Source: Diphasiastrum complanatum
Taxonomy: Eukaryota; Streptophyta; Lycopodiopsida; Lycopodiales; Lycopodiaceae
Length of the DNA stretch: 64,000 bases
Direction of reading: 5' to 3'
Assembly: GCA_029204225.1 (NCBI GenBank)
Contig: MU832089.1
Coordinates: forward strand, 1 to 64,000
Position numbers and translations under genes: made by a program. Positions within the stretch are counted from its first letter, which is position 1, and every line of letters starts with the position of its first letter. Under the pieces are notes generated by a model that saw nothing but the letters and a program-made list of their open reading frames with translations, was not told where the DNA came from and ran no database searches. Below are positions 2,301 through 47,552 of this stretch, in pieces.

Positions 2301-2306
2301 GTAAAG

Positions 2307-6193: not shown

Positions 6194-6206
6194 AGGTGGG
6201 AGATAC
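6194..6206 (+). promoter_or_regulatory. polypurine tract of the gypsy element
   Basis: The purine-rich run AGGTGGGAGATAC lies directly before the 3' LTR start (TGTTGG). This is where the plus-strand DNA primer is made during reverse transcription. Its position fixes the left edge of the LTR. Confidence 0.75.
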
Positions 6207-6653: not shown

Positions 6654-6746
<93 letters not shown>

Positions 6747-8017: not shown

Positions 8018-8033
8018 ATGTAAAGTTGAAGGT

Positions 8034-9353
8034 GTGGGATCCATTCTCTTATGCATAGGATCCTCCAAGAAGACTAAGATAGATGGTGTTCTCTTCATTC
8101 CTAGCATCACTAAGAATTTGCTTAGTGTTGGCCAACTTTTAGATCATGGTTTCATTGTGGAGATCTCTACTAATGTATGCAACATCAAGAAAAGTGGGAT
8201 GATCATAGCAAGGGGAACAAGGTTTGGGAGGTTATTTAAGCTTGATGCTTTTGTAAATCCTAGCCAAGTTGTGATGGTAGCCGAGGAGACCAAGATGACC
8301 ACATTTGACTTGTGGCACAAGAGGCTAGGTCACGTCAACACCAAGTCCATGGACGCTATGTGCAAGGAGGAGCTTGCTCTTGGCCTTCCAAGATCTTTGG
8401 CAAAGGAAGAAAGGGTATGTGAAGCTTGTGCCTTGGATAAGGCACACAAGTTACCTTTTTCAAGCTCAATCACAAAGACAAATCATCCTCTCGAGTTGAT
8501 CCACTCGGATGTGCATTTTGCTAGCACAAAGAACAAGGGTGGAGCTGCAATGTTTGTCACCTTTATAGATGACTACACAAGATATGGATGGGTATATCTA
8601 CTTTCCTCTAAAGCACATGTTTTTGAGAGTTTTGTAAAGCTCTAGACTTTTGTTGAGAAGCATCATAATCACAAGATCAAGTTCTTTAGAAGTGATGATG
8701 GAGGAGAATATATCTCCAATGAATTTAAAGACTTTTGTGATCAAGGAGGGATCAAGAAGGAGTTATCTTGCCCCTACACCCCTCAACAAAATGGGGTGGC
8801 TGAGAGAAGAAATAGGACACTATGTGAGTGTTCTAAAGCTCTAAGCTTAGATGCATGCCTAACTAAGTCTTTTTGGGGAGAAGCTCTCATGTGTGCTAAC
8901 TTCTTATGTAATAGAGTTCCATGTAGCTCTATAAATGGTAAAACATCTTATGAGTTATTGTATGGAGAAAAGCCTAATCTCAAAAGCATGAAGGTGTTTG
9001 GATGCATTTTCTATGTACATGTCCCTTTGGACAAAAGAACCAAGGAGGATCCATCATCCATGAAGGGGATCATGGTAGGTTATGGCAATGCAAGCAAAGG
9101 TTACAAAATCTACATCCCCTCTTCTCAAAGGGTTGTCATTTCTAGAGAGATCATTTTTGATGAGACTAGAATGCATAAGCTTGAAGATGATTCATCTAAC
9201 CACTCTATTGGAAGAGAGGTACTCGAGATCAAGGAGGAGATTGATCATGAGGAGGAGCTAGAACCAAGAACACCAAGCACACCAAGAAGATCCACAAGGT
9301 CAAGGATGGAGCCATTAAGGCTCACATACAAGGACAAGGGTAAGCAAGCCTAG
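8034..9353 (+). pseudogene. copia B integrase, three frames
   Basis: The GAG-preintegrase zinc-binding region is at about 8305-8450 (LWHKRLGHVN, then CEACALDKAHKL). The integrase core has its first Asp in HSDVHFA (about 8505). A stop at 8643-8645 interrupts it, the second Asp lies in a DDGGEY-like segment at about 8695-8710 read in the next frame, and the catalytic Glu lies in VAERRNRTL (about 8797-8820) in a third frame. The C-terminal part to 9353 ends in a basic Pro/Arg-rich linker with the motif TPRRSTRSRMEP. The copy cannot encode one continuous integrase. Confidence 0.85.
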
Positions 9354-9359
9354 GGAAGT

Positions 9360-10492
9360 ACTTCTTCTTATGCCTTCATCACATCTTTTGAAGAGCCTTC
9401 AAATGTTAGTGAAGCTTTAGAATCAAAGGAGTGGTTTCAAGCTATGTGTGATGAGTACAATGCATTGATGGAGAATGATACTTGGATGCTTGTTGATCTA
9501 CCTTTGGATAGGAATGTAATTGGATGTAAGTGGGTTTATAAGCTCAACTTGAATCAAGATGGGAGTGTTTCTAAGCCAAAGGCAAGGCTTGTAGCCAAGG
9601 GGTATGCTCAATCAAAGGGCATAGATTATGATGAGACCTTTGCACCCATGGCAAAGATGGTCACCGTAAGACTAATTATTGCTCTTACTTCTCACTTTGA
9701 TTGGTTATTGTTTCAAATGGATGTGTCAAATGCTTTCTTAAATGGTCATTTGGAAGAGGATATATTCATGGAGCAGCCCGAGGGCTTCATCAACCAAGGT
9801 ATGGAAGACAAGGTGTGTCATCTCAAGAGGGGCTTGTATGGTTTGAAACAAGCTTCTAGAACTTGGAACACAAGGCTCAATACTTTTCTTATCTCTATTG
9901 GTTTACTCCTAGTGAGTATGATCCCACTTTGTACATAAGATTTAGTGCAAAAGGCATTGTACTTTTATTACTTTATGTTGATGATATCATACTTAGTGGA
10001 GATGATTTAGAAGGTGTTGAGAAAAGTAAGCTAGATCTATCCAAAGAGTTCAAGATGGTAGATCTCAGGATTTTGCACTTCATTTTGGGTATGGAAGTAT
10101 TTAGATTTTTTGATTATGTCTTCATTTGTCAATCTAAGTATGCCATTTCATTACTCAATAGATTTAACATGCATGGATGCAAGCATGTAGAGACTCCTAT
10201 GGAGCATGATGTAAAAGTGACCAATAAAGAGGATGAAAGATCCTTCAAGGACATCACTCTTTATAGGCAACTTATTGGCTCCTTAATGTGGATAACCATA
10301 ACAAGACCTGATATTTGCTATAGTGTTTGCAAGCTTAGTCAAAATATGCAAGATCCATTAGTTATCCATTGGAAATGTGCCAAAAGAATATTGAGATACA
10401 TATCAGGCACACTAGATTTTGGGATCCTTTATAGAGGTGAATCCATTAACTTGCATATGACTAGATTAACTCAAACAAAAGCTATTTTGTGA
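9360..10492 (+). pseudogene. copia B reverse transcriptase, start of RNase H lost
   Basis: An RVT_2-type reverse transcriptase. The segment IGCKWVYKLN opens the domain (about 9520), QMDVSNAFLNG lies at about 9715 and LYGLKQASR at about 9835. A frameshift near 9870-9900 moves to the frame that carries the catalytic box LLLLYVDDIILSG (about 9965-10000). The thumb region ends in RPDICYSV and YISGTLDFG. The reading then degenerates at 10450-10492, before the RNase H active-site Asp. YVDD is intact, unlike in elements D and F. Confidence 0.9.
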
Positions 10493-11500: not shown

Positions 11501-13837
11501 GAGATAACAAATCTTAAATGGGACAAATAGATGGGACCTATTGTTGAATTTAATTGCAAGTTGGTTCACATTAAGTGAGACACTTGGAGTTATTTTTACT
11601 TGATATATTCAAGTTATGTTTGATAAATAATAAAACATTTGGTAAATTGTTGTTATAAAATCAAAATTTAATATGTATCAATATAGCATGGATAAATGTC
11701 ACCACAACTATATTGATCTAAGAAAACTCTAGAAAGAAAATATTAATACAATAATGACATCCAAATATACATGCATAGATGATTTCTACTCATTTAAAAT
11801 AGTTCCTTATATATCATAAAACATATGCTCATTTTGTATACTATCACTTTTAAGATTAAAGAAACTCATGAAAATATTCTATGAACATGCAAGTTCTTTT
11901 CAGAGTTTTTTGACTTGGTACTGTAATAACACCCTATTTTTTAATTTTAAGATAATCTATGAGACAGTTTAATTCTCGTAAATATGACTTGGAGCTTGTC
12001 AACATTGCCAAATTGAAGCTTACTCATGTACCCATTACTAAGTTTAGCATGTAGTAAGTAGCCTATTACATGCTATGACTTCATATATATAAAAACACCC
12101 CCAATCATAATACAATTGTAATTTTTTCTTATCAATTCCAGTAGTACTTGCATTGGTCTATCTCATGCTTGCATAAATATCATCTTTAAAATAAATTTCA
12201 TGTTAAGATTTAAAACTTGTTCAGATTACAATATTCTCTCATCTTATCTTATTGTAATTAGAGACACCAATATATTAAGTAGTGGAAGCAATCTAACAAA
12301 TGTTGATACAAGTGATCAAGATCGAATTGTTTTTCTAATATGTTAATCCATGCAAATAACTAATTTGCTAAACTTGTTTTAAGTTTTATAAGGTTGTCTT
12401 GATAAGAAAAATTTGAACATTGACGCTTATTTGATTCCATTAAAAATTTGATTATTACATTCCTCACAATCTTCTTTTTCTTTTTCATATTTAGACGTTA
12501 ATCTCAATTTTTTTTTAGCTCGATGCACTTACATCCAGCCATTTCTTACATCATGGCAATGCACAAGATAACACCTATTTAGATTATAATTAAATATGCG
12601 ATTATCCACTGAAACTCTAATTCAAATTTAGAATCCCTTATAATGATTATCTATATAAAATAATCTCACAACTACCTATTACTATGATGCTTTGAGAAAT
12701 GAATAACCATATCCAATTAAATGTAATCTAGTTTAAATTTCCTATTACACATCTTTCATTTGTTCTTTCTAATAAATAATATCTCTTCTATGAAAATTTG
12801 GTATGATGTGGAAAAAATTGGGGTCACAAAATTTTAAGATACGAATATAAGAAAAAGACATAATCAGTACTGAATCTTACAATCAAGTTTTATAAGAATA
12901 ATTCCCGACAAACTTGTCTTATAGAATCAACAATGGATATTCAAATGAGTGTCATTATAATTATCAAAAAACCTTCTCATCAAAATACCAAATTGATATG
13001 ATTTATGTAAATAGCTCTCAACAAAAGTTGTCTTATAGAATCAACGATGGATATTCAAATAAGTGCCATTATAATTATCATGATCAACTAAAAGAATGGA
13101 ATTAGTGTCTAAGGGAGGAAGCTTGAGTTTCACTCAATGATTTAAAAATTAAAAACAACCAAAGAGAATGATGAAAATAAAAAATAAAGTGGGAGATAGG
13201 TATTAGATCTCCAACAGAGAATTAGATTTGAGCTTTTCAAGCTTTCAATCTAGTGTTCAATGTGTAGTATTGGAGTAATACTACAATCTAATCATTCTTG
13301 CGTAGTATAAGCTTTGATATAAGGCTTTTTTGGAAGAGGGATTAAAATTTTGCTTGTAAGCTTTAGAATCCATGAAGGAACCTTTTCAAAAATCAATCCC
13401 AATATAGATTGTCTTTTTATGATTCTAGGTCTAGATTTTAGGGCTATATGTGAACATTTGTGCATACTCTTTGTTGCGTGGATACCCTGAATTTTATTAA
13501 CAATAGTAAAAAGATTTTTTTGGCAATTTCAATAAAACCTTATTCTTGGAGATGGCCTCCTACCTTGGGCCTTCCCCCTTGTGAGGTGCCCTCGGGGTGC
13601 CACCCTCGGCGCCTCAACGCCCTCGAAGTCGGGCCTTCCACTATACTTAGAAGTTATTTTACGTTAACTCATAGTTTTGTAATATATTTTCAATGGACTA
13701 TAGGACTTTGGCAATCTATGGACGCTACATAAATCAGCCAAAAAGCAATACTTGTTTTTGTTGCAAGGCAGGGTGAGAGTACACAACTGTGAATTAGCAC
13801 TCACACAACTATACAGGAGATTCATAAGAAAGCAAGT

Positions 13838-15050
13838 ATGGACATGGACAGACAAATCAGAGTAGCATATACATCAAGGAAAGTACTGATTCTAGCTTTA
13901 GTATGTACTATTTGTTTGATACTTACTGCAGTATCTGTTGCTCTAAACCAGTTTAGTGTCGATCGAAATATTTATTACACTTATCTTCGTAAGCAGAAAA
14001 GCAAGCGATTCCATATACCCAATGATCGATTGAGTTCTGTTGATAGGTCCTCAGTAGTCCAAATCAAAGGACAACCCCCACTCCTTACATCATTCAGACC
14101 GGCAAATCTTTCCTCAGTGCATCAAGACCCGCTAATTACAGCAGAATTGCCTCCAGCGCCAGTGCTAGCACCAATATCTATTGATTCCCATGAATGTAAG
14201 CGGGCGTGTGGGAAAGTAGCCATTCCCTACCCCTTCGGCCTTTCTCCTGAATGTGCGCGCAGTTCTCAATATGAACTGAATTGTACATGTGCGCGCAGTT
14301 CTCAATATGAACTGAATTGTACTGACTCAAACAACTCGCTAGCACAAGAAAACCTGGAAGATCCATCTGGCCCATGGCCATTCCTTTCAACTCCATCAGG
14401 CCCCTTTCAGGTTATTAACATCAGTTCCAATTATCTGAGCATCAATACAACAAAAATCAAAGCCATGGCAAAAACCCCAGCCGAGAATGGGGATTGTTCT
14501 GGCCTTGCGAATGCAAGTTTAGAGCTTGATCCTTATGGCCCTTACATTATAAGCTCCCAAAATATCTTTTTGGTGACAGGTTGCGGATCCATTGGGGCAT
14601 ATTCAATGGAAGGCCCATTAGAGTCATTATACTCTGGTGATGGAATATGTGGACCTCCTTGTATAAATCAATTTGATCTGCATTATTGCAATGATTATTC
14701 TTGTTGCATTGTCATCATGAAAGCATCTCGGCAAATCTACATGCAGGGCAGAGGTATTAACTTTACAGGTCAGGACAATGTTTGTGGGTTCTCTAGCATT
14801 CTGGACACAACGACCTACCACACCTGGAATCCCGGTGGGGTTGGAATTGGGCAGTACGGAGTCCGACTTGTCTGGGCAATACTGGATTACCCAAATTGTA
14901 CAGTTGCCAAATCCCAGCCAGACTATGCCTGCTTTGATAAGGGCCCACTCAGCAGTTGTAACGAATCTGGAGACATTTCTGGCTATTTTTGTGAGTGCAC
15001 TGCCACCGGCTATGAAGGCGATGGATATAAGAATGGGACCGGCTGCGCAG
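13838..15050 (+). CDS. WAK-like receptor, exon 1 (ectodomain)
   Basis: Exon 1 of a wall-associated-kinase-like receptor, a plasma-membrane protein whose outer part binds cell-wall pectin in characterised WAKs. The Met at 13838 opens a frame of 404 residues up to the splice site; a second Met lies two codons on. Residues 16-36 are a hydrophobic signal or signal-anchor segment. A Pro-rich spacer follows, then the galacturonan-binding domain with CGKVAIPYPFG at residues 124-134, many Cys residues and several N-glycosylation sites, and an EGF-like module with Cys 365 to Cys 403. The exon ends GCGCAG and the donor GTAAGA follows at 15051, splitting a codon after its first base. A perfect 36-bp tandem duplication lies at residues 139-162. 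Without splicing the frame would stop at 15082. Confidence 0.88.
14251..14322 (+). repeat. perfect 36-bp tandem duplication in the ectodomain exon
   Basis: Two identical 36-bp units, 14251-14286 and 14287-14322, in frame. Each encodes 12 residues, including the segment CARSSQYELNC, so one extra pair of Cys has been added to the pectin-binding domain. Complete identity points to a recent slip or an assembly artefact. Confidence 0.9.
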
Positions 15051-15418
15051 GTAAGAACGTAAAAACATCATGTCAGTGTTAAAATAGCTAAGGGTTTCCA
15101 TCTGAGAATGGTGCAATTTTTCTCCTTGGCATTTTATTTATGTTCCTTTTGATGCTGTCGATGAAATTCAAGATTTCTCTTTTCTAAGTCTATAGTGGCC
15201 CACATGAACTTGAATGTGGAGCTTTGATCTAACATGTTTTGTTAAGATTAAGCAAATTTGGAGGTTTTGAGGAATCTAGGCTGCTTCATTAACCTTGTTT
15301 TTAGATTACAGTACGCATTTGGTCAAGGTGATTGATTGCCTCTATGTTATGAAAGCCACACCATTGTGATAAATTCTTTCTGTTCTCTCTATAATTTGTT
15401 CTTTTGTGGGACCTGCAG

Positions 15419-15595
15419 ACGTAAATGAATGTGCAAACCCCAGTTTGAATAATTGTGCAGAAAATGCGACATGTGCAAATCTTCACGGCACATACAATTG
15501 TTCTTGTGAGAAAGGTCTGATCGGGGACGGATATCGCAATGGCACTAATTGTACCCGTCCATCAGAATCCAATCCCCCAGTAGCCCTCATATCAG
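15419..15595 (+). CDS. WAK-like receptor, exon 2 (calcium-binding EGF module)
   Basis: A 177-bp exon after acceptor CCTGCAG (AG at 15417-15418). It restores the split codon as Asp and gives DVNECANPSLNNC, the calcium-binding EGF signature Asp-x-Asn-Glu-Cys, then CEKGLIGDGYRNGTNC. It encodes about 59 residues and ends after ATATCAG with donor GTTCTT at 15596, again splitting a codon after the first base. EGF modules of this kind sit between the pectin-binding domain and the membrane in WAK receptors. The acceptor has a T-rich tract upstream. The intron between exons 1 and 2 is 368 bp. Confidence 0.88.
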
Positions 15596-16779
15596 GTTCT
15601 TTTCTTTCTTTCCACGAGAATTGTACTATGTCGCACATCCTTATCCTTATTGAACTAAGTATGCAATGTAAAATTAACAAACTTCCTCTTTTTATTAATA
15701 AAAGATGGGAAAGAGTACAAAGGGATGCATTAGAAAGCATAAAAGCATAAAGGTCATCATGTGAATTGAGATATCCAAGTACGTCAACTATAACAAAGCA
15801 AAAAAACGCACAAAGTAGCTATTGAAAGCCTATTGCCTGATATAACTCACTAGGTAAGATAGTTGCAAGTTTAGGTAGTGCAGAAAGCTGTGAAGCAACC
15901 GTTCCTGCAACTACGACACGTCGAAGTATCGCAAGTGCTTGAATGCGTTGTAAAGTGGCAGAAACTCATTGACGATAATAGGACATAATGATAGATAAAG
16001 GTGATGCATCACATCCTTGGAATTTCGTTGCAAATTCCTGCACAAGTTGATATAAAATCATTGAATTTCTTATGCACACACCCATAAGTTTCCAAGGCAA
16101 AAAGAATAAAGTATTCTCCAAGAGTGACATGTGAATAATCCAGCTCTTTTATCTTGAGCTGCATGAGAAGTAGCAGCACCTTGGGAAATGGCACTTCTAG
16201 GGTCATTTTGGAAGTTGTATATCCTGCCTTATCTCCTCTCACCCTAAATAACTTCTAAAATGATCCTAACTTGTAGAGGTCACTGGAGATACAATTTCCA
16301 TGTATAAATGCAGAACGAACACATTCATTATTTTTACCCAAAATGAACATAAGATTTGGTGTAAATTTTTTTAGTGTAGATCTAATGAATTAGTCAAAAT
16401 TTGAAGGCATGGTGTGGGCATGTAAAATTTTTATCGTGAACTTTGATTTATCGATAGGTTAATTTAGTAGGCTTTGACTCAATGTAATGGATTTATATTT
16501 TAGTTCAAAAAAATGGAAAGAAACTTTTATAATACAATTATTAGTTCGATAGTCTACCCTTAACACTCCATTGGTGCACATTCTTATTTTTCACTGGTCC
16601 ATATGATTTGGGCCCTAGGAACTAGTCTTGTTGGTAGTTAACAACTATTATTGGCATTGGGTCATCCCATGCACGATATTTGGGCCACTAATCCTTAACT
16701 CATAAACCCTCTTGGTAATCATAAGTTGAATTGATGACTTATTATTTGTATATTTGTTTGGGAGTTTAGTCTATTGTTT

Positions 16780-20385: not shown

Positions 20386-20531
20386 CAAAAGTTGAAGGTT
20401 GATAATCCCTTAGAAATGTCATGTGGGAGCTTTCCCCACTATCAATCCACCATTCCTCACTAGAATCTCTCTTGCTTGTTGATGTGGATGTAGATGCCAT
20501 CAAAGATGAGATTTCCTCATCTTTCTCCTCT

Positions 20532-21449
20532 TCATGTGCAAGGTTCTCTTGTTGGCTCTCTTCTTGTGCACTTTGCCTCTTGTAGCATTCGGATGCAAAA
20601 TGCCCCTTCTTTCCACAAAAAGAAGCATTTGAGTTTGGATTTGTATCTCTTCCATGAACTTGATGCTTGATCCTCCACCTTGGCTTCCTTGCCTTGGATC
20701 TTCATGGATGCATTGGTCTTATTCTTTCCTTTGAATGAGAAGTTGACCTTCTCATCTCCATCTTGCAAAGATAAGGAACTCATCCTAGTCTTTCCATGTA
20801 GAACTCTACTCTCCTCGGCCACAAGCACACTATGTAGCTTGTCAATAAAAGGTAGGCTCTCTTGAATGGAAAAACTTTGGACAAAATTGGAGTATTCATC
20901 TGCAAGTCCATTTAGGATTACTTGAACAAGTTCATTATCAAGAATTTTGTCACCAATAAAAGCTAACTCTTTGTTTAGTGACTTAATTCTAAGCACATAT
21001 TCTTGTGCACTCTCATCACTTCCTCTCCTGATTTGCAAAACCTGATTTTTTAGCATAAGCACTGTTGAAGTGTTGTTTGATTCATAAATGGCCTTCAAGG
21101 AATCCCAAGCTTCCTTGGCCGAAGTACAAGATCCAACTTCTTTTAGAAGTTCATTACTAACATTCATTTTAATACAATGCAATGCTACTCTTTCTCTTTT
21201 CTTGTACTTTATTGACTCTTGTCCTCCAAGAGGCTCATCCTCTTTATCAAGAACAATGTCAAAGAGATCTTGGAACACAAGGAGTGACTCCATTCTCACT
21301 TTCCATATAGAATAGTTGGTTGTGTTTAGCCTTTCACTAGCCTCTAATAGGTAAACACCTGTAGATCTCATTGCTAATGAACAGTACACAAAAGTATTTC
21401 TTTGCTTTACTAAGTTCTTTTTCAGAATATGACACAATAAGTCACACAC
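20532..21449 (-). pseudogene. copia gag, nearly open
   Basis: A 305-residue frame. The likely true start is the internal Met at 21371 (MRSTGVYLLEASERL), because the upstream residues do not resemble gag. The UBN2-type gag fold includes YSIWKVRMESLL and ALHCIKMNVSNELLKEVG. The zinc knuckle region (SKLKCFFLWKEGAFCI at about 20640) is damaged by a small frameshift, so the knuckle spacing is lost and the frame ends at 20532. The protease core continues in another frame at about 20440 as WWIDSGESSHMTF, with Gly-Glu in place of the usual Gly-Ala. The same family occurs at 25776-26740 and 38532-39820. Confidence 0.8.
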
Positions 21450-25608: not shown

Positions 25609-25775
25609 GTATTGCTAGTGGGATTGGAGTTTTTATAATTATCAATGTGGTCATAATATGGTGTCTATGGAGAAGATGGAAAATCAAATTAGGTGGTTCT
25701 GATGAAAATATCCAACTCTCTACTCTTAGTTTCCAAGAAACTTTGATGGACTTACAAAAAAGAGATGGTGCTAAT
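25609..25775 (+). CDS. WAK-like receptor, exon 3 (membrane span), cut by a breakpoint
   Basis: After acceptor AG at 25607-25608 the frame matches the phase left by exon 2 and gives GIASGIGVFIIINVVIIWCL, a single membrane-spanning helix, followed by the basic stop-transfer stretch WRRWKIK and a juxtamembrane segment ending QKRDGAN. In WAK-like receptors the ATP-binding lobe should follow in the same exon. Here the reading changes at 25776 into the complement of a copia protease. The matching kinase C-lobe lies inverted at 27328-29170. The short overlapping - strand frame is a shadow of this exon and the copia edge. Splicing across the 10-kb intron is inferred from matching phase only. Confidence 0.85.
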
Positions 25776-26830
25776 ATGTGAGAGCTAGCCCCACTATCAA
25801 TCCACCAAGTGTCTCTGGAATTGCCATTGCTTGTTGGTGAGGATGTAGATGCCATCAAGAATAGATCTCCTTCATCCTCCTCCTCCTCATGTGCAAGGTT
25901 TCCTTTCTTGTCGTCCTCCTCTTGTGTTCTTTGCCTCTTGTAGCATTTGGATGCATAATGCCCCTTCTTTCCACAAAAGAAGCATTTTTTCTTTGACTTG
26001 TCCTTGCCTTTGAACTTGATGCTTAATCCTCCTCCTTGGCCTCCTTTTCTTGATCCTTCTAAGATCCCTTGGTCTTCGTCTTGTCTTTGAATGAGAAATT
26101 TGCCTTCTCATCTCCATCTTGCAATGATAAGGAACTCATCCTAGATTTTTCATGGAGCATCCTACACTCAAAAGCCACTAGCACACTATGGAGCATATCA
26201 ATTGATGGCAAAGTATCTTGGATGGCAAAACTTTGAGCCAAATTGGAGAATTCATCTCCTAAGTCATTGAGAATCACTTTTACAAGCTCACCATCTAGAA
26301 TTTTCTCTCCAATAGAAACTAATTCTTTGTTGAGAGACTTGATCCTAAGCACATATTCTTGTGCACTTTCATTACTTATTCTCATACTTTGTAAGATTTG
26401 GTTTCTTAGCATAAGTACTCTTAAGGTTTTGTTGGATTCATATATAGATCTTAAAGAATCCCAAGCTTCCTTGGCCGATGTGCAAGAGGCTACCTCCTTC
26501 AAGAGGTCATTACTAACATTCATTTTGATGCTATGAAGTGCTAGTCTTGTCTTCTTCTTACATCTAACCAATTCTTGTCCTCCAAGAGGCTCATACTCTT
26601 CTTATAGGACAATATCATAGAGGTATTGGAGCACGAAGAGTGACACCATCTTCACTATCCATATTGAGTAGTTTGTAGAATTCAAGCTCTCACTAGATCC
26701 AAGAAGGAATCCACCAATGGTCCCATCTCCCTAATGACTTGTACTAATGATGTACTTGTTGGCCCTCCCTAAGCTCTCTTCAAAAATTTGCCTCACTAGA
26801 AACTCACTTGATGTTCACAAAGACACAAGT
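25776..26830 (-). mobile_element. copia 5' half (gag and protease start), inverted segment
   Basis: On the - strand, gag starts near 26740 with a stop-free stretch from 26571 to 26059. It has the UBN2-type fold (ALHSIKMNVSNDLLKEV), then a frameshifted basic region and zinc knuckle (about 25985-25940), then TWWIDSGASSH, the protease active site, at about 25830-25777. The homology ends exactly at 25776 (CTCTCACAT). The next expected residues of this family (Met-Thr, then Lys-Asp and FSTLH) are found on the + strand from 29171. No LTR is seen above 26740. Confidence 0.85.
26059..26571 (-). pseudogene. copia gag fragment, open for 170 residues
   Basis: A UBN2-type gag core with SAKEAWDSLRSIYESN, the coiled segment ESAQEYVLRIKSLNKEL and a C-terminal stretch LSLQDGDEKANFSF. 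It is closely similar to the gag at 20532-21371 and to 39503-39814, so all three belong to one family. The frame ends at 26059 through a small shift; the zinc knuckle is read in the neighbouring frame (25887-26117). The N-terminal portion upstream of 26571 is disrupted by a stop. Confidence 0.8.
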
Positions 26831-27327
26831 GGCAAGATCCCCTTGATCTTGATTCACAAGAACTATTAGGAAGGAATCTACAAAACAATGCTCAAGAAAA
26901 TTGAAATTAATTTGATCCTAGAAACTCACAAAGGTTTCACGTTGTCTTGACATGATCGTCAATCCAAATCAACTTATGCTTATGGATATGATTATTAATT
27001 TGTATACATCTACAAAGTGTACAAGCCAAACATTTAATATTGGAAAAACTCAGCCGGTTTAAAAATATAAGATTCAAACTAAGTTTCATAAAAGATTACA
27101 AATGCTAATGAAACAACTTCCATTTCTTTCTTTTCAATTATTTTCATTTGAAACTTGTTCACATGTAGAAACAAGTGAACCTACTCTCAAAAACCCAAAA
27201 CAAAACTAATAATGACAACAATTTTCACACATTCTCTTATTTATGTAAAACTGTAATAAATAACCAAAGTATGTATTGGCAAAGCCTTTGTGGTCTATGT
27301 AAGCTGCAAAATCCCATCATACATTTT
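26831..27327. other. spacer between the copia half and the kinase 3' end
   Basis: No coding sequence recognised. On the - strand it would include the 3' untranslated region and polyadenylation region of the inverted kinase exons. I cannot identify the cleavage site. Confidence 0.55.
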
Positions 27328-29170
27328 TCATCTTTGGAAAAGCTCAATATTGGAGATCGAGGCATGTGAATATGAGTTGGTGTTGCTACCATGAAATGGA
27401 AAACTAGTAGATTGAGAAGAGGAATTGAACCCAAAATCTCCAGAACTATCAGCCATCTCTGCCCTCAAAGGTAGCCAATCCTTCTCTGATGACTTAAATG
27501 ATATGGTGTTTGACAACACTTTGTGATCTTTTTTTAGTAAAAGTAACTCATCCAAAACTTCTTTCATGCTTGGCCTATTCTCTCGATACCTTTTGACACA
27601 TTTCAGAGCTACCTGGGTACCCACCAAGATTGACAAATAATCACAATAGTGTGAAAAAAATGAGCATCATACAAAATAAATGACATTACTATATATAGGA
27701 CAATAGGTGCCAAAGCTATTAGCCACTCTTGCATATATCAATATTTTCATACTTTACATAACTAGATAAATTTTACTACTAGTCAAGATTTACCTGGACT
27801 ACTTTGTACATTGCTTGCATCACATGGGGATCAGATGAAGCATCCAAACCTACATCAAATATATCTTCAAGCCTTGCCTTCATTTGTACCCACACCAAGC
27901 AGTAAACAAGAAGTTAGATGACTTTGCAAAGCAAATCTTCTTTTAATGATACTGAGTTTAGTCAACTATTTCAGTAGTGTCATAAGAATGATGTCCCTAC
28001 AAAGACACACCATATAAAATAACTACTTTGAAGTATGCAAGATAGATCTCAACAACCAAAGCCGCATGTGTAAGACTTTCATAGTGGGAGTGTCTTGGAG
28101 AATAAGCCTACACCACGTTTTGGAGATTACCTCTTTCAAAAGTTGAGAAACACGAAAGACTAGACTCTGGTTTCCATGATCACGAGAAAGATCAATTGGC
28201 TTTTCAGCAGTAATGAGTTCAAGTAAAACTACTCCAAAGCTGTAAACATCACTTTTGTCTGATATCTAAGAATGCCAATGATATGAAAATTTAGAAGCCA
28301 GATTCAAACTCTGTATACTATCAAAAGAGTCCCCATCCAATATCCACATTTGTCATTCATAAAATTTATAAATATGAATTAAAATTTGGGAATAGAAAAG
28401 GATCTCTACCTGCATATTTTCAAAAAACTCTGGGTCCTGCCACAAATTCCAAAAAAGTCAAGTTTTGTGCCATCGAATAGTTTAAAAGAAAAAGAAGCAG
28501 TTTGGGAGCAACACACACACACACACACACACACACCAATAGCTAGAAGCATTAAGCAAGTGCATGTTTTGTTTTATGGCCAATACAATGATAAAATATT
28601 TCTCCTATTCCAATAGCTAGAAAAGTAAAGAATAATGAGATTTTACCAAATAACCAGGAGTTCCTGCAAGCAATCCAACAAACAACTCATAGGTGTTAGG
28701 CTAAGCATAAATCCAGCACTGGAAAGTCACTAGCACTATATAGACCTAGTTGAAATTTGGGCTTCAATTGAGAAGAGTTGATTATAAAGTGAGAGAGCAA
28801 AGCAAACTACTATAAATGCAATTTCAATCCACCTAATGGAATGTAAGATCAAATTGGTCAAAAAATTGAGTTGAAAAACACATAATAAGACATCAAACAC
28901 TATTGGTCATAGAGCCGAATCACACTACAAACTCAAGCTTGCATTGAACCTTGAATCATGGTTGAAAAGTGAGTTGATTCAATTGGAATGAGTCTTGAAA
29001 TTCCAAAATCTGCAACTTTGGCTTGATACTTGTCATCCAGTAATATGTTGGAACATTTGACATCGCGATGATAGATTGGTGGTGATGTGCCAAAGTGCAA
29101 GTACTTTAGGGCTTCAGCTATCCCAATTGCTATGTCCAATCGTTTATCCCAATCTAGAACTAGTGAGTTC
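27328..29170 (-). CDS. WAK-like kinase C-lobe, six exons, 5' truncated and inverted
   Basis: The catalytic lobe of a WAK/LRK10L-like Ser/Thr kinase. Exons on the - strand: 29170-28950, 28663-28647 (17 bp), 28436-28410 (27 bp), 28265-28131, 27877-27794, 27612-27328. All introns are GT...AG and every junction keeps frame. Exon 1 starts inside the lobe ([16 protein letters not shown]), then gives the catalytic loop [13 protein letters not shown] and DFGISRL. The two tiny exons encode GTPGYL and DPEFFENMQ, the P+1 loop and APE-like region. Then [24 protein letters not shown], a helix, and [10 protein letters not shown] (invariant Arg), ending with a Ser-rich tail and stop. The ATP-binding lobe (glycine loop, catalytic Lys) is absent. 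It has no internal stop, so the damage is recent. It is probably the displaced 3' half of the receptor at 13838-25775. Confidence 0.88.
28410..28436 (-). CDS. 27-bp microexon of the kinase
   Basis: Bounded by GTGGCAG before and GTAGAG after on the - strand. It encodes DPEFFENMQ, the residues that must follow GTPGYL in a receptor kinase activation segment. Without it the protein would lack the Asp-Pro-Glu motif, so it is a true exon despite its size. Confidence 0.85.
28510..28536. repeat. (AC)n microsatellite in a kinase intron
   Basis: A pure AC run of about 27 bp between the two microexons. Confidence 0.95.
28647..28663 (-). CDS. 17-bp microexon of the kinase
   Basis: Bounded by TTGCAG before and GTAAAA after on the - strand. 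With one base carried from the previous exon it encodes Gly-Thr-Pro-Gly-Tyr-Leu, the conserved start of the P+1 loop. The preceding exon ends at 28950 with donor GTTCAA. Confidence 0.82.
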
Positions 29171-30295
29171 TTGACGTCAAAGGACTTTTTCTCAACTTTA
29201 CACTAAATCAATGATGATAAAAAGTTTCTCTTTACAACAAGTGATGAAGAGTGTAGGATAGATGGTGTTGGTACCATTTCTTTGTGTCTAGAATCCTCTA
29301 AAAGTATGGATCTAGAAAATGTCATCTATGAATCACCAAGAACAAGCAAGGAGTTTGTTCCATTTTGAAGAATGACTTTTTCATTGCAAAAGGATTTAAA
29401 CATGGAAGATTGTTTAAATTGGAAGCTAATATTGCTTTTGAGAATGTGAAGTTGGCAAAGGAGGAGATCACTCAATTGAAGATATTGTCAAAGTGTGATA
29501 TTGCTAGCATTGAGGAGGAGCATCAAAGAGAGGAAGATCTTGAGGATCAGCCTCAAAACATGAGAGTTCCAAGGATGTCCTCGATGACAAAGGCCGAGTC
29601 ATCAAATCGCACACAAATTGTCCATTCAAGTGTGCATGGGTGGAGAGCATTGGAGAGTCTACTATTTTTTAATACTTTTTGGATAGTATTAGTAGACATA
29701 AAGTGGCTTGTTTCTTATCTTTAAGATTCATGGTATTTAGTACTTTGTACATCAAGACAATGAAATTGGATGATTTCAAATCTACATTTGTTGTTGATAA
29801 AGCAATTTCATTGGATAACTATTTTTGTAATAGTTTGAATAGAGTCATAAAAGATGAAACATCATTTGCTTTGGAAATCTTTGTTTCCACATGCTTTGTG
29901 CATGATCATTCCAATGTAAGGACCCAAGATTATCATACTTCAATGATAGGAATAATGGTAGCATTTTGTTCTTCAAGTAGAGATTGTAGAATCTACATGT
30001 TTTCCACCAAAGAAGTTGTCAATGGTGGAAATGTGATCTTTCAAGAGTGGAAGATTTGTAAACTTGAAGAAGCATCTTTGGATCAACACCTTATTCAAAT
30101 CATTGATGTTTTGGAGTCAAGTCAATTGGAGGAGAAAGCTCAAGACCCGAGGACTCCAAGAAGAACCTTGAGTATCAAGATGGAGCCATCAAGACTCAAT
30201 CTTGATACTCAATCATATGGATCAAGCAAGGCAAGTTGCAAGTTAACTTCCTTATTACATGCTGGAAATTCACCTAACTTTACAAAGGAAGAGAC
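29171..30295 (+). mobile_element. copia 3' half (protease end to integrase linker), degenerate
   Basis: From TTGACGTCAAAGGACTTTTT the + strand reads as the continuation of a copia protease (SKDFFSTLH, a stop, then VGTISLCLESSKSMDLENV), next to the kinase cut at 29170. It then shortens to MKNDFFIAKGFKHGRLFKLEA (29365-29430), a linker with IEEEHQREEDL (about 29500-29540), and a separate integrase C-terminal stretch at about 29900-30190 with the motif TPRRTLSIKMEPSRL. Frames are broken in at least three places. The first bases continue the family cut at 25776. Confidence 0.8.
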
Positions 30296-31047
30296 TTTTG
30301 TATGTAGGAGACTCTTTATTGATGACTATTCTAAAAGAGCTATTGTATATTTTATGAAGCACAAATGTGAAGCCTTCTAGTTCTTCAAGAAATACAAGGA
30401 GCATGCAGAGATGTTGCAGACAAGCAAAAGATTCAAATCCCTCAGGAGCGACAATGACTGCGAATACATCTCAAATGAGTTCAAGGACTACTGTTCAACT
30501 AATGGCATCGAACAGCACGGTTTGCTACTTCTTATTTTCCAAAGTCGAATGAACTGGTCGAAGGGATGAACAAGACCTTACTCGAATATGCCAAATGCAT
30601 GATCGCTCATGCTTCATTGCCCAAATCATTCTGGCAACATGTTGTATCAACAACAGCCTATGTGCAGAATCAATGTATGATTAAAGGCCTACTTGACAAC
30701 AAAACCTCTCATGAAGCCTTCATTAAAGCATTTGAGAGTATTTGAATGCATTGCCTATGCTCATGTCCCAAAAGACAAAAGAAAGAAACTTGATGAGCAT
30801 TCTTTCAGAACTATTTCTATTGGCTCTTGTTCTTCTAATGGAATGTATCAACAACTATACAATATTGAAACTTACAAAGTATTAAAAAACATGGATGTGA
30901 CTTGCATTGAAGATCACTTTATTGATTTGAATGGCAAGGACCAGATGCAGTCTGTAAATTCGGCCCCAACAACTAATGTATATCAAAATACTATCATATT
31001 CAATAATGGTCCAATATCCAGGAATAGCTATAAGCAGACCTCCATTG
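30296..31047 (+). mobile_element. copia element C1, left part (integrase to start of RNase H)
   Basis: It begins in integrase (LFIDDYSKRAIVYFMKHKC), has SDNDCEYISNEFKDYC with the second catalytic Asp (about 30440-30490), then in another frame KHLRVFECIAYAHVPKDKRKK (about 30720-30785). It then jumps, with RT deleted, to the RNase H segment NNGPISRNSYKQTSIV, which ends at 31047. Element D starts at 31048. The RNase H continues at 35553. C1 resembles element E in sequence. Confidence 0.8.
31043..31047 (+). repeat. target site duplication of element D, left copy
   Basis: CATTG directly before the LTR start TGTGAAG at 31048. The same five bases follow the 3' LTR at 35553-35557. Confidence 0.88.
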
Positions 31048-31278
31048 TGTGAAGATTATTAAAATATTATCTTCCTATCTCGAGTTTGGGGCCATGTCCA
31101 TGGTTATTTCCATTGTAATTTATGTTGTACATAAAAGCTATGTGAATTGAGCACATAACCTTCTAGAATAGGTCGAGTTTGGGTTAGGTCGATTCAATTT
31201 TGATGACATGCAACTGTTTAGATAGCATGCAATATCTTTCTTATGCATGCAAGCCACATGCAATCAGTGCATGCAACA
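31048..31278 (+). repeat. 5' LTR of element D, about 500 bp missing
   Basis: It starts TGTGAAGATTATTAAAA and matches the first 230 bp of the 3' LTR (34824-35054) closely, then jumps at ATGCAACA straight to the primer site. The full LTR is 729 bp, so the last two thirds are gone from this copy. Confidence 0.88.
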
Positions 31279-31290
31279 TGGTATCAGAGA
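31279..31290 (+). promoter_or_regulatory. primer binding site of element D
   Basis: TGGTATCAGAGA, one base off the usual initiator tRNA-Met site, directly after the shortened LTR. Confidence 0.88.
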
Positions 31291-32052
31291 TTCATGCTTT
31301 GAAGAGGTGAGGGTGTATACATCAGATCATGAATGTTTTTGCTTGCAAGAACTCGGATTTGGGAGAGGGATTCAAACTTGCTGAGAAACAAGCTATCTGT
31401 GGATCATAAGTGGATCAAATCAAGTCTGATCTGCTCTAGTGGAGCCCTGTATGGACAAAGAGCTCACACTGTGAAATCAGCCCTCATTAAAGAGTGCTAC
31501 TTCTCAAGGAATGATCCAAATTTGATGTTCTATAGCTTGTTGGATAGGTATTGAAGAGTAGAATGTGTTGCTCGAGTTTGTAAACCAATTTGATTGGTTT
31601 TTAGAAGAGTTTGAGGCAATTAGAGAGTTTGAGAGAGTACTCAACTCATGGGATATGCCAAAGTGAGCACACATCTGTCTTTTTCACCAATTTCATCATT
31701 TTTCACTGTCAATCAAGTAGAATTGGATAGAAGTGAGTGTTCTGAGGTCTTAGACTTTTCATTTCACACATATTATTGTGTTTGAGTTGAAAGTAAGTTC
31801 CTAGAGAGTTTTTCAGTTCTTTGAAACTCGTGGGAGAGATAGACTTCTTACTTGCATGTGCTTCGTTTTAGTGACTGAAGCAAGATCGAAATTCAAGACA
31901 GATTGATTTTCTGTGTTGAGAATTTGTTCTCACAACTGTTGCTAGATTTCATAGGTTGGATCAACATCATCAGTGTTAGATCCTAGATTGAGATAGCAAG
32001 CAACATCTTTCAACTCCAGTTTTTGTCATTACTAGAATTTCTCATAGAGAAC

Positions 32053-33020
32053 ATGTCTTCATCTGGTTCACATTTCTTGGAGCACAATGAGAGATTAACA
32101 TCTTCCAATTATGCAATGTGGAAGATCAGAATGGAATCATTATTGATTCTACAGGATGTAATGGATATTTTGAGTGGAGTTGAAGATGAACCTGCTACAC
32201 CTAATGAAGCTGCAGCATTTCACAAAAGAACCAAAATTGCCCTTCATTTTATAAAAATGAATGTAACCAATGAAGTGTTAAGAGAGATCAGTACATGCAC
32301 CACTACCAAGAAAGCTTGGGATACTCTAAGAACAATCTATGAAATCAAGAATACTTCTAGATTGCTTACACTTAGAGACCAAATATTTATAAGTTATCAG
32401 AGATTAGATGAGAGTGCTTTATCATATGTGATGAGAGCTAAGGATCTTCATCAAGAGTTAGCTGGTATTGGAGATGCTCTTAAGAACACTGAACTTGTTC
32501 AAGTAGTCCTTAATGTACTTAGAAATGAGTATGACAATATTGTGCAGACTTATGATGTCAGGGAGGATCTTCCATTCTTGGAGACACTGCAAGGTGTTCT
32601 CATTGCTGACGAAAGCAGACAAGAGAACAAGATGCTGAGGATCAACAGACTTTCATTGAAAGATGGTGGAGATGACAAAGCACTCTTCATCAGAGACAAG
32701 TCAAGAGGCAAGGGCAAAGGACAACAACACTTCAAGAAGGACAAAGCCAAAGAAGGTGGTGAGGATCAGTCCTCACAAACTGCAACATCCAGTGGCAAGA
32801 AGAAGCTTTCAAAGATCAAGTGTTTTTTTTGTGGCAAGAAAGGACACTATGCATCAAACTGTTTCAAGAAGAAGAACCAATCTAAGCAAGCTAACCTTAC
32901 TAATGAGGATGAGTGTGAGGGTGTTGAGAGTGAAAGAGAGGATTCGGTAATGATGTTTATTTTTTCATCATTTCCTTTTAAGAATGAAGAAGTTTGGTGG
33001 ATTGTTGTGGATATTTCCTG
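32053..33020 (+). pseudogene. element D gag, zinc knuckle and protease start
   Basis: The Met at 32053 (MSSSGSHFLEHNERL) fits the gag start of this family better than the Met at 32023. The frame is open for about 320 gag residues: UBN2-type fold (SNYAMWKIRMESLLILQ, then ALHFIKMNVTNEVLREI), a Lys/Gly-rich basic stretch, and a canonical CX2CX4HX4C knuckle (CFFCGKKGHYASNC, about 32821-32862). It ends at VWWI, the residues just before the protease Asp-Ser-Gly, which are replaced by gypsy-derived sequence. The open frame runs on to 33051 but the last 12 or so residues are not copia. Confidence 0.88.
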
Positions 33021-33410
33021 CAATAATGAACAAGTGGGTCCCACCACTTGAAATACTGTTGGCCAAGCCTTACCTAGTGGGCCCCGCCATAGTACAATAG
33101 TGTACAGTTAGAATAATAAGTGCGAGGGCACCGGCTTCCTGCGTGTATAAGACCGACCCTGTGATCACACAAATTGGATAAATAGAACTTGAATAAAAGG
33201 ACTTTGGGCCTTATTAGAATAAATTAATTAAAAAGCCCAAAGTCAAGTTCATAAGATTCTAAGTTAAAAGGGAATCTCTCAAACTCACATGAATCATGTG
33301 AGTTTGGCCCTTTTCCTAATGAACCATTAGATTGAAATTCATTTCGTTTGAAGAGCTAGGATGCCATTGTAAATAGGCCAATGAGAACCAAGATGGCTCT
33401 CCCTCCTCAA

Positions 33411-34812: not shown

Positions 34813-34823
34813 TTAAGGAGGAG
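34813..34823 (+). promoter_or_regulatory. polypurine tract of element D
   Basis: TTAAGGAGGAG directly before the 3' LTR start TGTGAAG. Confidence 0.85.
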
Positions 34824-35552
34824 TGTGAAGATTATTAAAATATTATCTTCCTATCTCAAGTTTGGGGCCATGTCCATGGTTATTTCCATTGTAATTCATG
34901 TTGTACATAAAAGGTATGTGAATTGAGCACATAACCTTCTAGAATAGGTCGAGTTTGGGTTAGGTCGATTCAATTTTGATGATATGCAACTTTTTAGATA
35001 GCATGCAATATCTTTCTGTATGCATGCAAGCCACATGCAATCACTGCATGCAAATGCAAAGTAGTTTCTATGATCTACACATGTCTAGGTAGTTTTATGA
35101 GTTGACATGCAGTACATGCAATATCCATGCATGCAGTTACACATGTGGATCTCTGGTAGGTGAATTAGTTCAGCTAAGTGGACTTTCCATGCAACTTCAC
35201 TATAGGAATTAGAGTCTCTCTCATGTAGGAAAATCTTGGCATGTTTTTCCATATTGTGAATAGTGAGATTTTGGTGTTTTGGACTCATTCTCTCTCTACC
35301 CAAGTTCTCTTTCATTGATTTTCTCTCTCTACCTAAGAGCAACCTATTTTTCCCATACTGAACACTTAGAATTATTTCTGACATTCAATTGTCATAGTAA
35401 GAAGTTAGATTTTTAAGTCAGATGTATGCCATTGTGCTCTTACCTTAGATTTTTCAAGCATACTGTTCTTTGATCAATCTTGTGCAATCACAACACCTCA
35501 GTAAGATCCTGTAGGGTGTGTGGTGAAGTTCACACATGCTAAAAACTTCACA
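34824..35552 (+). repeat. 3' LTR of element D, full length
   Basis: 729 bp, starting TGTGAAG and ending CTTCACA, a perfect 7-bp terminal inversion. It is followed by the duplication CATTG at 35553-35557. The first 230 bp match the shortened 5' LTR with a few differences. Confidence 0.92.
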
Positions 35553-38531: not shown

Positions 38532-39820
38532 TTACAAGTGATCTTGAACTTCATGAATTAGATCACTAAGACATAAAAACTTGTTCTCAAATGAGTCATT
38601 GTACATCTTATCTTCAATTTCCTTCTTGATGAAGCCCTCGAGTTGCCTCATGTAGATCTCATAGCAAAATGGTTCATCAAGCATTGGAGTAAGAAAAGTG
38701 TTGAAAGTGAATGGTTGAGAATCTTCCCCTTGATTACCTTTTCCAAGATAAGTGAGCCTTGAAGGCTCGGCCCTTGCCTTTGTGGATCTTCTTGGAGCAC
38801 TTGATCTTTGAGGTGGATCCTCCTCAATCCTTTGTTGCTCCTCCTCAATCCTTGCAAGATCATTGACACCAAGGTTGTTGATTTCACTTTCATTCATACA
38901 AGATACTAGATAGATCCAAGCATCTCTTGTATAAACATCTAAGAATGTTTCATGCATCTTATCATCACTACATGGTACACGAGGAAAAGAGTGTACATTT
39001 GAATGAATGATTTTCTCTTTTGCCATAACAATAATAGCATCCAACTTAAACAAACCACCTTGTTTAACACCATTTGCTATGCAATTATCATTCTTCATGA
39101 TGGAACAAACTCCATGCTTGAAGTGAACATCTAAACCATCATCCATTAGTTGTCCAACACTAAGCAAGCTCCTGGTAATTAATGATGCAAAAAGGACATT
39201 GTCTAGATCCATCCTTTTGCTAGATCCTAGACTTAATGAGATGGTACCAACACCATATATCTTACACTCTTGATCATTTGCTAAAGAAAAAAATTTATTA
39301 GCACCATTGAAAGAGTGTAAGGTTGAGAATGTGTCCTTTTGGAAAGTCATGTGGGAGCTAGCCCCACTATCAACCCACCAAGTGTCTTTTGAGTTGCTTT
39401 TGCTTGTTGGAGTGGATGTAGATACCATCAAAGATGAGATCTCCTCATCTTCATCCTCTTCATATGCAAGGTTCCCTTGTTTGTCCTCCTCCTCTTTTGC
39501 TCTTATCCTCTTGTAGCATTCGGATGCATAATGCCCCTTCGTTCCACAAAGAAGCATTTTTGCTTTGACTTGTTTTTTGAGCTTGATGCATCATCCTCTT
39601 CTTTGGCCTCCTTTGGATGTTTCTTCTTTCCATTGGTCTTCTTTTTGCCCTTTAATGAAAAATTGGCTTTCTCATCACCATCATGCAAAGACAAGAATCT
39701 CATCCTAGATTTTGCATGGAGCATCCTACACTCTTCAGCCACTAATACATTGTGAAGTTTTTTTATAGTTGGCAAATTGTCTTGGATGGCAAAAGACCAA
39801 ATTTGCAAAGTCATCTCCTA
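38532..39820 (-). mobile_element. copia remnant: gag end, protease, and shortened integrase
   Basis: On the - strand: gag from 39820 (FAIQDNLPTIKKLHNVLVAEE) with a basic Lys-rich stretch and a frameshifted zinc knuckle; then from 39557 a 341-residue frame with WWVDSGASSHMTF (protease, about 39385-39347), VGTISLSLGSSKRMDLDNV and LLSVGQLMDDGLDV (about 39250-39130). It then jumps to the integrase-RT linker (RIEEEQQRIEEDP, then RRSTKARAEPSRLTY at about 38800-38745). The integrase core and RT are deleted. The frame runs to a stop at 38532. The N-terminal half of gag is missing at 39820. Confidence 0.85.
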
Positions 39821-43075: not shown

Positions 43076-44154
43076 TGTTGGATTTACTCCTTCTTCTCTC
43101 CTAAATTCCAATTTTAATTTGCCTCCATTAATGCTGTACATTTTCTAACATTGTCGAGCAGTCTGCATTTTTACACGTGAATTCGCATAGACGAATAAAT
43201 GGCGAACAAGTCACGACACTTGTTCGCGACACTGTGCAAGAGACGGAAAGGGACACTACCTTACCAAATGGCAAAGTGCCCTAAGAATTAAGGCACTCTG
43301 TAAATTTTACCTTAAGGCCATCTGCAAGAGTGACGCACCTTTACATCATCATAAACGTTCATCTGACATCACACCCTTTTCACGCTCTCCCTATGCAGTT
43401 GCGCTAACAGATTGGACAATGATGGTAGCCGCCCACGATCTACCACAGACAACACATACACTCTGTACTTTCACATCTGCACACCTGTAGTAATATGTAT
43501 ATATACTGGATACTTTTCATGTGTTCAGTGATGAAGTGATGAATGACGCAAAACGTTGAAGTTATGCTATTTTGATCAAGGAGGTTTCATTTCTCATTAC
43601 AGATAGAAATAAGCTTTGTTGAGCATGCGATTTCGTCCGCTATTGCCTTGTGCTCTACCGCAGTATTGATTTGTATATTTTCATGTACTTAATCTGATAA
43701 TAGCTCATTTGTTCTGCATTCAGATCTATTTCAATGTTGCTATGCTTATCTTTCATTCTGTCTGGTCTTTCTAATTGCTCTTTCTGGTTTTAGACGATTA
43801 GTTTTTTTTTTTCTTGTCTTTCGCGAACAATTTGTGACTAACAACCAGTAGAGCATAGCCTAGTTATTCGCAAATCATTCGCGACAAATTATTTATCTAG
43901 TGCTTCAGCCATTCTAAAGGTTTGGCTACGTAATCTAGAATGGCTATGATTTCTATCACTAAAGTTTCTGTTCATTCTGATAGGCGTAGTCATGCTTAGG
44001 GAGAGAGTCATTTAGATCCATTTTTTGCTGTGCATGAACATCATTCGTTCAAGATTTGTTTCTTGTTCGAGTTTCGTCTCTTATTCGAGACTCGTTTCTC
44101 GTTCGCCGATTGTTCGTCATCCATTCGTCCTCATCCCTCTCTCAAAACCCACCA
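43076..44154 (+). repeat. 5' LTR of element E
   Basis: 1079 bp, TGTTGGATTTACTCC to AAACCCACCA. The right edge is fixed by the primer site at 44155 and the left by the duplication. Confidence 0.92.
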
Positions 44155-44166
44155 TGGTATAAGAGC
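44155..44166 (+). promoter_or_regulatory. primer binding site of element E
   Basis: TGGTATAAGAGC, one base different from the standard TGGTATCAGAGC, directly after the LTR. Confidence 0.9.
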
Positions 44167-44313
44167 TATTTTTGTAGCTTGATTAGCTTCCATAGTACAA
44201 GACTCTACTAGCCGATAGAGTAACTGTCTTTTTGTTCTTTATTTCTTCTAGTATTAGATTTTCATACTTAGGTCACTGATAGTTTCGTCTATCACCTAGA
44301 CTAATTCTTCCAC

Positions 44314-45209: not shown

Positions 45210-45864
45210 TGTGAAAAATACAGATCCTAAGTGGATCTAAACTCCAAGATCATTGGCTTGAATGCTTGCACTCCAAACTACATAAGCTAGGAATTGGCAA
45301 CACATTCTATGCTACCTAGAATGCAAAGAACTTGATCAAAAAGCATTTATCACAAATGGAAACTTCCATAAACATCAAGTGCGGCCCAAAATAGCATTAT
45401 AAAGTCCATAATACATCAGCCTATCACTTTTGGAAAGCACCTAAGATCATACACAATAGCTTGAAGACAATACACACAACAATGCTCTCAATGGAGGAAG
45501 AAACAATGACAATGATCTATTGATCTCAATGAAGCATACAAAAGGTTTCTCCAACCTGTTTTCCACGACTTCCCTACTATTTATGGATGAGGAAGATGAC
45601 TCTCTCTCCTCTCTCTAGAAGGTACTTGACCCTAGATATTCCCTATATAGGAAAAATAGCTAAAAATGGCTTATATGACCAAAATACATCAAAATGGTCT
45701 CATTTTGAAGGGTATGAAGTTTGACACTTCATCATACTAAAAAAATACAGTAAATAAAAACATTGTGGCCTGGTTCACACGTGTGAAACTCCAGAACCAA
45801 AACTATTTACAATTTTAGCCAATTTAGACCTCAAACTAGCTAGGAAATGTTGACAATTTTCACA
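45210..45864 (-). repeat. 3' LTR of element F
   Basis: On the - strand TGTGAAAATTGTCAAC to GTATTTTTCACA, 655 bp. It matches 50353-51007 base for base except at 45828 (A on the + strand, where 50971 has G). An 8-bp terminal inversion TGTGAAAA/TTTTCACA is present. Confidence 0.96.
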
Positions 45865-46297
45865 CTCCCTCTTCAACATTGGATGCTAGTTTCAACATAG
45901 TCTTTGAGCACATTCCAAGATTAGATCTATGCATTAAATATAGGTCCTTTCCCAATGGTTTGGTGAAGATATCAGCCACACACTCCTTTGAAGAGACATG
46001 TTGAAGCTCCACCTCTTTGGCAATGACTTGATCTCTCACAAAATGGTGAGCAATCTCAATGTGCTTGCTCCTTGCATGAAAAACAGGATTGCTTGCCAAG
46101 CTTTGGGCTGAAAGGTTATCACAAAGTATGATTGGAGTCTTCTCTGGTTCCAGCAAGTGAAGATCCAATAACATCCTCTTGATCCAAAGAATCTCCTTGG
46201 TGCATGTTGTTAATGCCTTGTACTCGGCTAGGGTGGAAGATAGAGAGATAGTTGGTTGCTTCTTTGATAGCCATGAGACCACTCCATCTCTATCCAT
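45860..46297 (-). pseudogene. element F RNase H
   Basis: A 145-residue frame: VVSWLSKKQPTISLSS, then CDNLSAQSLASNPVFHARSK and CVADIFTKPLGK, all RNase H motifs of copia elements. The active-site Asp segment (DSDFAGDQMD) lies just upstream at about 46320-46290 in the same frame, without a start codon of its own. The usual residues between DSDFAGD and VVSW (Arg-Lys-Ser-Thr and a short loop) are missing, so this copy is shortened. The stop lies 4 bases into the LTR. Confidence 0.85.
45865..45875 (-). promoter_or_regulatory. polypurine tract of element F
   Basis: On the - strand GAAGAGGGAG ends directly at the LTR start TGTGAAAA. Confidence 0.88.
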
Positions 46298-46319
46298 TTG
46301 ATCACCTGCAAAATCTGAA

Positions 46320-47552
46320 TCAACTCCTTGGTGCTTGCTTTAGCCCATACAAACTCTTTTGGAGATAGCACACATGATTAGGCTCATCATGTGAAACATA
46401 GCCCTCGGGTTGCTCCATGTAAATATCTTCTTCAAGATCACCATTCAAGAAGGCATTAGTAACATCCATTTGCCACATATCCCAATCATAAAGAGTTGCA
46501 AGAGAGATTAGGATTCGAATAGTTACCATCTTTGCCACGGGTGCAAAGGTCTCATCATAGTCAATACCATATTCTTGAGCATACCCCTTTGCCACCAACC
46601 TTGCCTTGTACTTGTTGATTGATCCATCTTGATTTGTCTTGATCTTGAAGATCCACTTACAACCAATTGCCTTCTTGTCCTTTGGAAGCTTTACCAACCT
46701 CCATGTGTTGCTTTTGATGAGTGCTTGATGCTCATGATCCATGGCTTGGATCCATTCCTTCTTTTGAATTGCTTCACCTACACAAGTTGGTTCATCAAAA
46801 GAGGTAAGAAAAGCAAAGTTAGAGTTGTCCACCACTTGCTTTCCTTTTTCATCATAGGTTAGCCTTGATGGCTTAGCCCTTTGCCTTTGAGTCTTCCTTG
46901 AAGTTTGCTTTGGAGTGGCATCTCCATCTTCATCCAAGACATCTTGCACATCATGATGATTAGTAGGCACATCAACATCAACATCAACAACATTGGAAAC
47001 ATTCTCTTCATGAAAGATGACATCCCTACTTATGACAACTTTCTTTGTAGAAGGAATGTACACTTTGTAAGTCTTGCTTACTTCACTATAGCCAACAAAC
47101 ACACCCTTCTTTGATGAAGGATCTTCTTTAGTTCTATCATCAAGTGTGATATTGACAAAACATGTACATCCAAAGATCCTACAATGCTTGACACTCGGCC
47201 TTCTACCATAAAGAACCTCATGAGGAGTTTTACCATCCAAGGAAGCACTTGTCCATCTATTACATAGATAGTTAGCACATGCTAAAGCTTCCCCCCAAAA
47301 AGACTTAGCAAGATTAGCATGTAGTCTCATTGCCTTGGCACATTCACAAAGGGTTCTATTCTTCCTCTCGGCCACTCCATTCTGTTGTGGAGTCCTAGGA
47401 CTAGACATCTCCCTCTTAATCCCATGTGCTATACAAAAGTCTTTGAACCTATTTGAGGTGTATTCCCCTCCATTATCAGATCTTAAGCATTTGATCTTTG
47501 TATTGAATTGGTTTTCCATTTCATTCTTGAACTTGACAAATGCAGCAAACAC
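46320..47552 (-). pseudogene. element F integrase core and RT start
   Basis: A 410-residue frame. Integrase: SDNGGEYTSNRFKDFC (second Asp) and GVAERKNRTL (catalytic Glu), the C-terminal region with FGCTCFVNI and VVISRDVIF, then a linker with RQRAKPSRLTYDEKG. RT opens with [33 protein letters not shown] and MWQMDVTNAFLNGDL, and stops at LYGLKQAPR. After that the reading passes into RNase H with about 230 residues of RT missing. The frame overlaps the previous one by 70 bases and is shifted by one base relative to it. Confidence 0.9.

Follow-up and report, generated by a model that had tools for sequence, protein, structure and literature searches.

The window analysed, 64,000 nucleotides in length (C571:1-64000), comes from a Diphasiastrum complanatum genome that was searched over 1.745 Gb in 5176 contigs. 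On its + strand lie three exons of a receptor gene. The first (13838 to 15050) encodes a GUB_WAK_bind domain (PF13947, E 3.1e-7) and is followed by the donor GTAAGA; the second (15419 to 15595), with the acceptor GGACCTGCAG and the donor GTTCTT, encodes an EGF_CA domain (PF07645, E 7.8e-8); the third, the membrane/kinase exon, is present only in its first part (25609 to 25775), which contains a hydrophobic run, a putative membrane-spanning segment, and ends after the residues DGAN. Both domain matches pass the curated cut-off, and by this predicted domain content the receptor is wall-associated-kinase-like (WAK-like). The remaining kinase exons, to the stop codon, are inverted and occupy 27328 to 29173 on the − strand; of their pieces, K1, K3 and K5 were found to be open on translation, three short pieces being left out. 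They are followed on the same strand by the receptor 3′ flank (26998 to 27327), in which homology to paralogues is about 82% as far as 27088 and a weak 74% to about 26998. A complete cytoplasmic kinase domain is absent from the window, the N-lobe being missing and the C-lobe inverted. The long intron of the receptor also carries a dispersed repeat (15735 to 16110), for which the best 40 of 1300 candidate matches comprised 5 window-type gene copies at 99 to 100% and 35 places at 83 to 87%. A stretch within it, 15741 to 16107, which matches sequence behind a related kinase on C5, on the − strand, was considered as a part of the inversion described below and rejected as this repeat.

Two pieces of a copia retrotransposon lie on either side of the inverted kinase exons. 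The first half, from gag to the start of the protease, lies on the − strand inside the inverted segment (25776 to 26950) and has a copia-type gag (Retrotran_gag_2, E 1e-21, 26059 to 26601); its 5′ part and LTR are apparently missing. The second half is on the + strand (29174 to 30315). Homology to copia starts at 26950, about 50 bp past the last trace of the receptor 3′ flank, with no 5′ LTR before that position, and at the other end there is only an LTR match of at most 77 bp (30239 to 30315), so two flanking LTRs were not found. By its sequence, the copia beside the gene is a truncated fragment and not a complete element. Further downstream, a pair of direct repeats that are 96.6% identical (31047 to 31280 and 34823 to 35056) probably represent the LTRs of another copia element, whose gag lies at 31987 to 33051.

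The membrane-exon protein was used to search the genome, and six places were found: the window, a second copy of the locus on chromosome C10, three further C10 loci (at 4724942, 7145535 and 7453851, all on the − strand, 81% identity) and one more distant relative on C5 (53%). The three C10 paralogues are 99.3 to 99.5% identical to one another over 9 to 15 kb, and therefore count as one witness. In the paralogue near 7454 kb, here called P7454, a single exon, open over 257 codons, begins with the membrane segment, takes in the N-lobe and reaches into the C-lobe; this type of exon carries more than half of the kinase (Pkinase, E 3.8e-31, profile positions 2 to 152 of 263). When the window was aligned to the paralogues, all three gave homology on the + strand to 25775, then 338 bp present in the paralogue alone, and then homology on the − strand that starts at 29173, reaches 27088 and stops short of the copia fragment. 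Because the membrane and N-lobe parts share one exon, the left break and the deletion fall inside that exon. The ungapped identity to P7454 was 835/980 (85.2%) for one piece of the gene and 1720/2015 (85.4%) for the other, an equal divergence that fits two halves of one gene. Among the matches listed, protein searches with the membrane exon and with the kinase fragment agree, locus for locus, in their three closest relatives; for the kinase fragment, the nearest among the best 150 of 754 candidates are these paralogue loci at 99% over 72 residues, followed by the C5 relative at 85%.

An earlier reading of the sequence only had proposed that a single inversion of about 3.4 kb split the gene and the copia sequence at the same two breakpoints, with loss of 350 to 400 bp at the left one. 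The loss is borne out, and its size is a little smaller, at 338 bp relative to all three paralogues. We take the lost sequence to encode the glycine-rich loop and the remainder of the N-lobe. Neither the window nor its second copy gave a match to it in searches that took in seven C10 loci (blastn E ≤ 0.01, tblastn E ≤ 0.1), and relocation of the lobe within the window is ruled out at the same thresholds.

At the left junction (25775/25776), the end of the + strand receptor exon at 25775, as originally placed, is the same relative to all three C10 paralogues. The gene sequence ...GCTAAT is followed directly by copia sequence, ATGTGAGAG, with 0 bases in common, and the bases after 25775, ATGTGAGAGCT, read as the complement of AGCTCTCACAT from the end of the copia protease, which establishes at the base level that the complement of the protease begins at 25776. 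At the right junction (29170 to 29173), the sequence-only reading had the kinase break at 29170; its location holds and the exact base does not, since homology on the − strand extends to 29173 in all three C10 paralogues. These three additional bases are explained by CTTG (29170 to 29173), which is compatible with both kinase and copia. The DNA-level match of the more distant C5 relative on the kinase side extends only to 29156. The next five bases, 29174 to 29178, are ACGTC, where 7/7 copia relatives have TGA, and they may be filler or a later mutation.

The continuity of the two copia pieces was evaluated in 12 relatives, six loci each from the best 40 of 2017 and the best 40 of 1199 candidates, both of which lists include the window and C10. 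In 9 of the 12, the homology to the left half (to 25776) and that to the right half (from 29179) are exactly 9 bp apart; the exceptions have 14 bp (L008), lack the first 40 bp of the right half (L004) or have 552 bp in between (L020). An uninterrupted relative within the window itself (39183 to 39820, − strand), which spans the same protease position and serves as an internal control, also has 9 bp between the parts, and in seven longer copia stretches TTGTGAAAA is found soon after CACAT in 7/7. A toy simulation placed two breaks independently and uniformly in a 2.2 kb fragment, and in 0.9% of trials they were within 9 bp. The spacing indicates that the two halves are one interrupted sequence, and the suggestion that copia resumes on the + strand where its first part had ended is thereby confirmed.

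With 0 shared bases at the left join and four (CTTG) at the right, the joins point, as far as their sequence can tell, to end joining and not to recombination between repeats. Little or no shared sequence at the joins is a trace of end joining, unlike recombination between repeats. Inverted copia copies that could have recombined do lie nearby (20421 to 21317 and 39183 to 39820, on the strand opposite to the right half), but such recombination would place both breaks in copia, whereas the left break is in a kinase exon that has no bases in common with copia at the join. The junction sequence, without homologous sequence at both breakpoints, speaks against this route, which we reject and give practically no weight.

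Reversal of 25776 to 29170 explains both the gene and the copia arrangements by one inversion and one deletion of 338 bp. The two junctions are reciprocal, and this single reversal restores colinearity with the paralogues on the gene side and with the copia relatives on the other. The alignments to an uninterrupted receptor relative and to uninterrupted copia copies, which had been suggested as a check, both favour inversion, and the proposal of a single event of about 3.4 kb is upheld by paralogue colinearity, base-level junctions and copia spacing. Therefore, the simplest account of the locus is one inversion in which the ATP-binding lobe was lost at the left break. We put at about 0.94 the probability that an inversion of approximately 3.4 kb (25776 to 29170), together with a deletion, broke the WAK-like gene and the copia fragment.

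That figure includes variants with several steps, in which the N-lobe was deleted before a clean inversion took place or an inverted duplication was followed by loss of the original. A single present-day arrangement cannot separate these from one event, but they require extra events that break at one point, and at the protein level the best 150 of 754 candidates for the kinase fragment include no second copy beyond the paralogues and the C10 copy; we consider them unlikely. In the single-event account, which we infer, a + strand WAK-like gene would have been followed, just downstream of its 3′ end, by the truncated copia fragment, oriented as the gene is. Double-strand breaks at two points, in the membrane/kinase exon and in the copia protease, would have released a segment of about 3.4 kb, and after loss of the 338 bp at the exon end the segment would have been rejoined in reverse by non-homologous or microhomology end joining.

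The broken gene is one member of a cluster of WAK-like receptors. C10 carries the ectodomain stretch (13600 to 15730) in four near-identical copies: that at 7507481 is allelic, and the others are at 7296876, 4740542 and 4660454. The membrane region, among the best 40 of 872 candidates, is confined to the window and the C10 copy, and the paralogues follow at 75%, so that the other three copies of the ectodomain seem to stop short of the inversion. In each of these three, homology to the window breaks off at 19337, where one and the same LTR-like sequence sets in. Matches to this interrupting sequence are also present at 43131 to 44224 (about 98%) and 53291 to 54310 (about 93%) of the window. 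The ectodomain copy at 4.74 Mb lies about 15.4 kb upstream of an open kinase exon of the P7454 type on the same strand, and the 9.4 kb stretch that contains this exon is 99.5% identical to P7454; judged from this order, and if the assembly is right, the ectodomain of the receptor at this locus looks to have been exchanged.

The window was compared with the second copy of the broken locus from 9987 to 62936, positions 1 to 9986 being left out, and was found to match C10:7503868-7569700 piecewise at about 99.5%. The window has a 5.8 kb insertion (45210 to 51007) that starts with TG, ends with CA and is flanked by CTTAG, where C10 has a single CTTAG; it is probably a polymorphic LTR element. Conversely, C10 has about 6.3 kb of extra sequence at window position 60274 to 60278 (L015 1026-7340) that is absent from the window contig. 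The window-side matches around that position have five bases in common, as they would after a target duplication. Across the left and right joins the two copies are identical (100%) over 351 and 341 bases, respectively. Between 24600 and 29300, 16 differing positions were listed, four of which are an alignment-end effect; they lie in introns and copia only, with none in the receptor exons. From these differences, the window contig and the C10 copy look like two haplotypes.

This comparison bears on whether tandem paralogues or repeat copies could have been falsely joined during assembly. Parts of this family are present on C10 in several near-identical segmental copies, where assemblers are able to err. 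However, a chimeric contig is unlikely because the C10 copy has identical junctions despite differing from the window by about 0.5% and by the 5.8 kb insertion with its 5 bp target duplication, and the joins are moreover reciprocal in both the gene and copia. We therefore regard an artefact as very improbable, and the inversion remains the preferred reading. An uninverted allele was not found in this one genome among the matches listed: the left-junction stretch and the membrane region matched at 100% only the window and the C10 copy, the paralogues being next at 75%. The ancestral order consequently rests on the paralogues.

When the three remaining exons, the last taken to 25781 (13838-15050, 15419-15595 and 25609-25781), are joined at their GT/AG ends, they stay in frame and give 520 residues that end in DGANM, since the gene frame continues past the left join for one codon (ATG) and then meets TGA. 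With the C-lobe on the opposite strand and this stop codon one codon past the join, the product would be at most a kinase-less receptor. The frame, splice signals and stop codon are compatible with one that retains the GUB_WAK_bind domain, of the pectin-binding type, and the EGF domain, and each of the three exons is present exactly on C10. Judging from this open frame, it is conceivable, and in our view doubtful, that the broken gene is still expressed, giving a membrane receptor that acts as a decoy or co-receptor beside intact paralogues.

Constraint was estimated by pairwise comparison with P7454 over few codons and without an outgroup, the ectodomain, the EGF exon and three short kinase exons being left out. 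The first inverted kinase piece, K1, was identical at 70/72 residues, with 13 synonymous and 2 non-synonymous changes (dN/dS 0.04), whereas the values were 41/47 residues and 0.46 for K3, 70/92 and 0.55 for K5, and 46/57 and 0.86 for the membrane exon; a pairwise dN/dS cannot place these changes on a branch. The strong conservation of K1 hints, on pairwise evidence only, that the break was late relative to the duplication, and the gene may thus have been functional for much of its history.

The event is an ordinary and familiar route by which duplicated genes are lost, and a new instance of a common kind. Its value is as a clean, base-level record of how a small inversion can silence a duplicated receptor gene in a plant, uninterrupted relatives being there for comparison; beyond that record, little new is learned from it. 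A literature search covering titles and abstract openings of the papers listed found no account of this inversion, and one may exist. Small gene-breaking inversions made by end joining have reciprocal joins, little shared sequence and some bases lost at one end. A 415 kb polymorphic inversion in humans is reported to disrupt a gene (PMC4591017); the event here likewise disrupts a gene, but it is 3.4 kb in length and affects a duplicated receptor gene and a decayed element in a plant. The likeness to WAK and WAKL proteins lies in the GUB_WAK_bind and EGF_CA domains of the window gene and in the kinase domain of the paralogue exon. In Arabidopsis, five truncated WAKLs, at least three of them expressed, are mentioned in a review (PMC11588464). 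These are described there as being without the membrane or EGF part, whereas the window gene keeps its EGF domain and putative membrane segment and loses the kinase.
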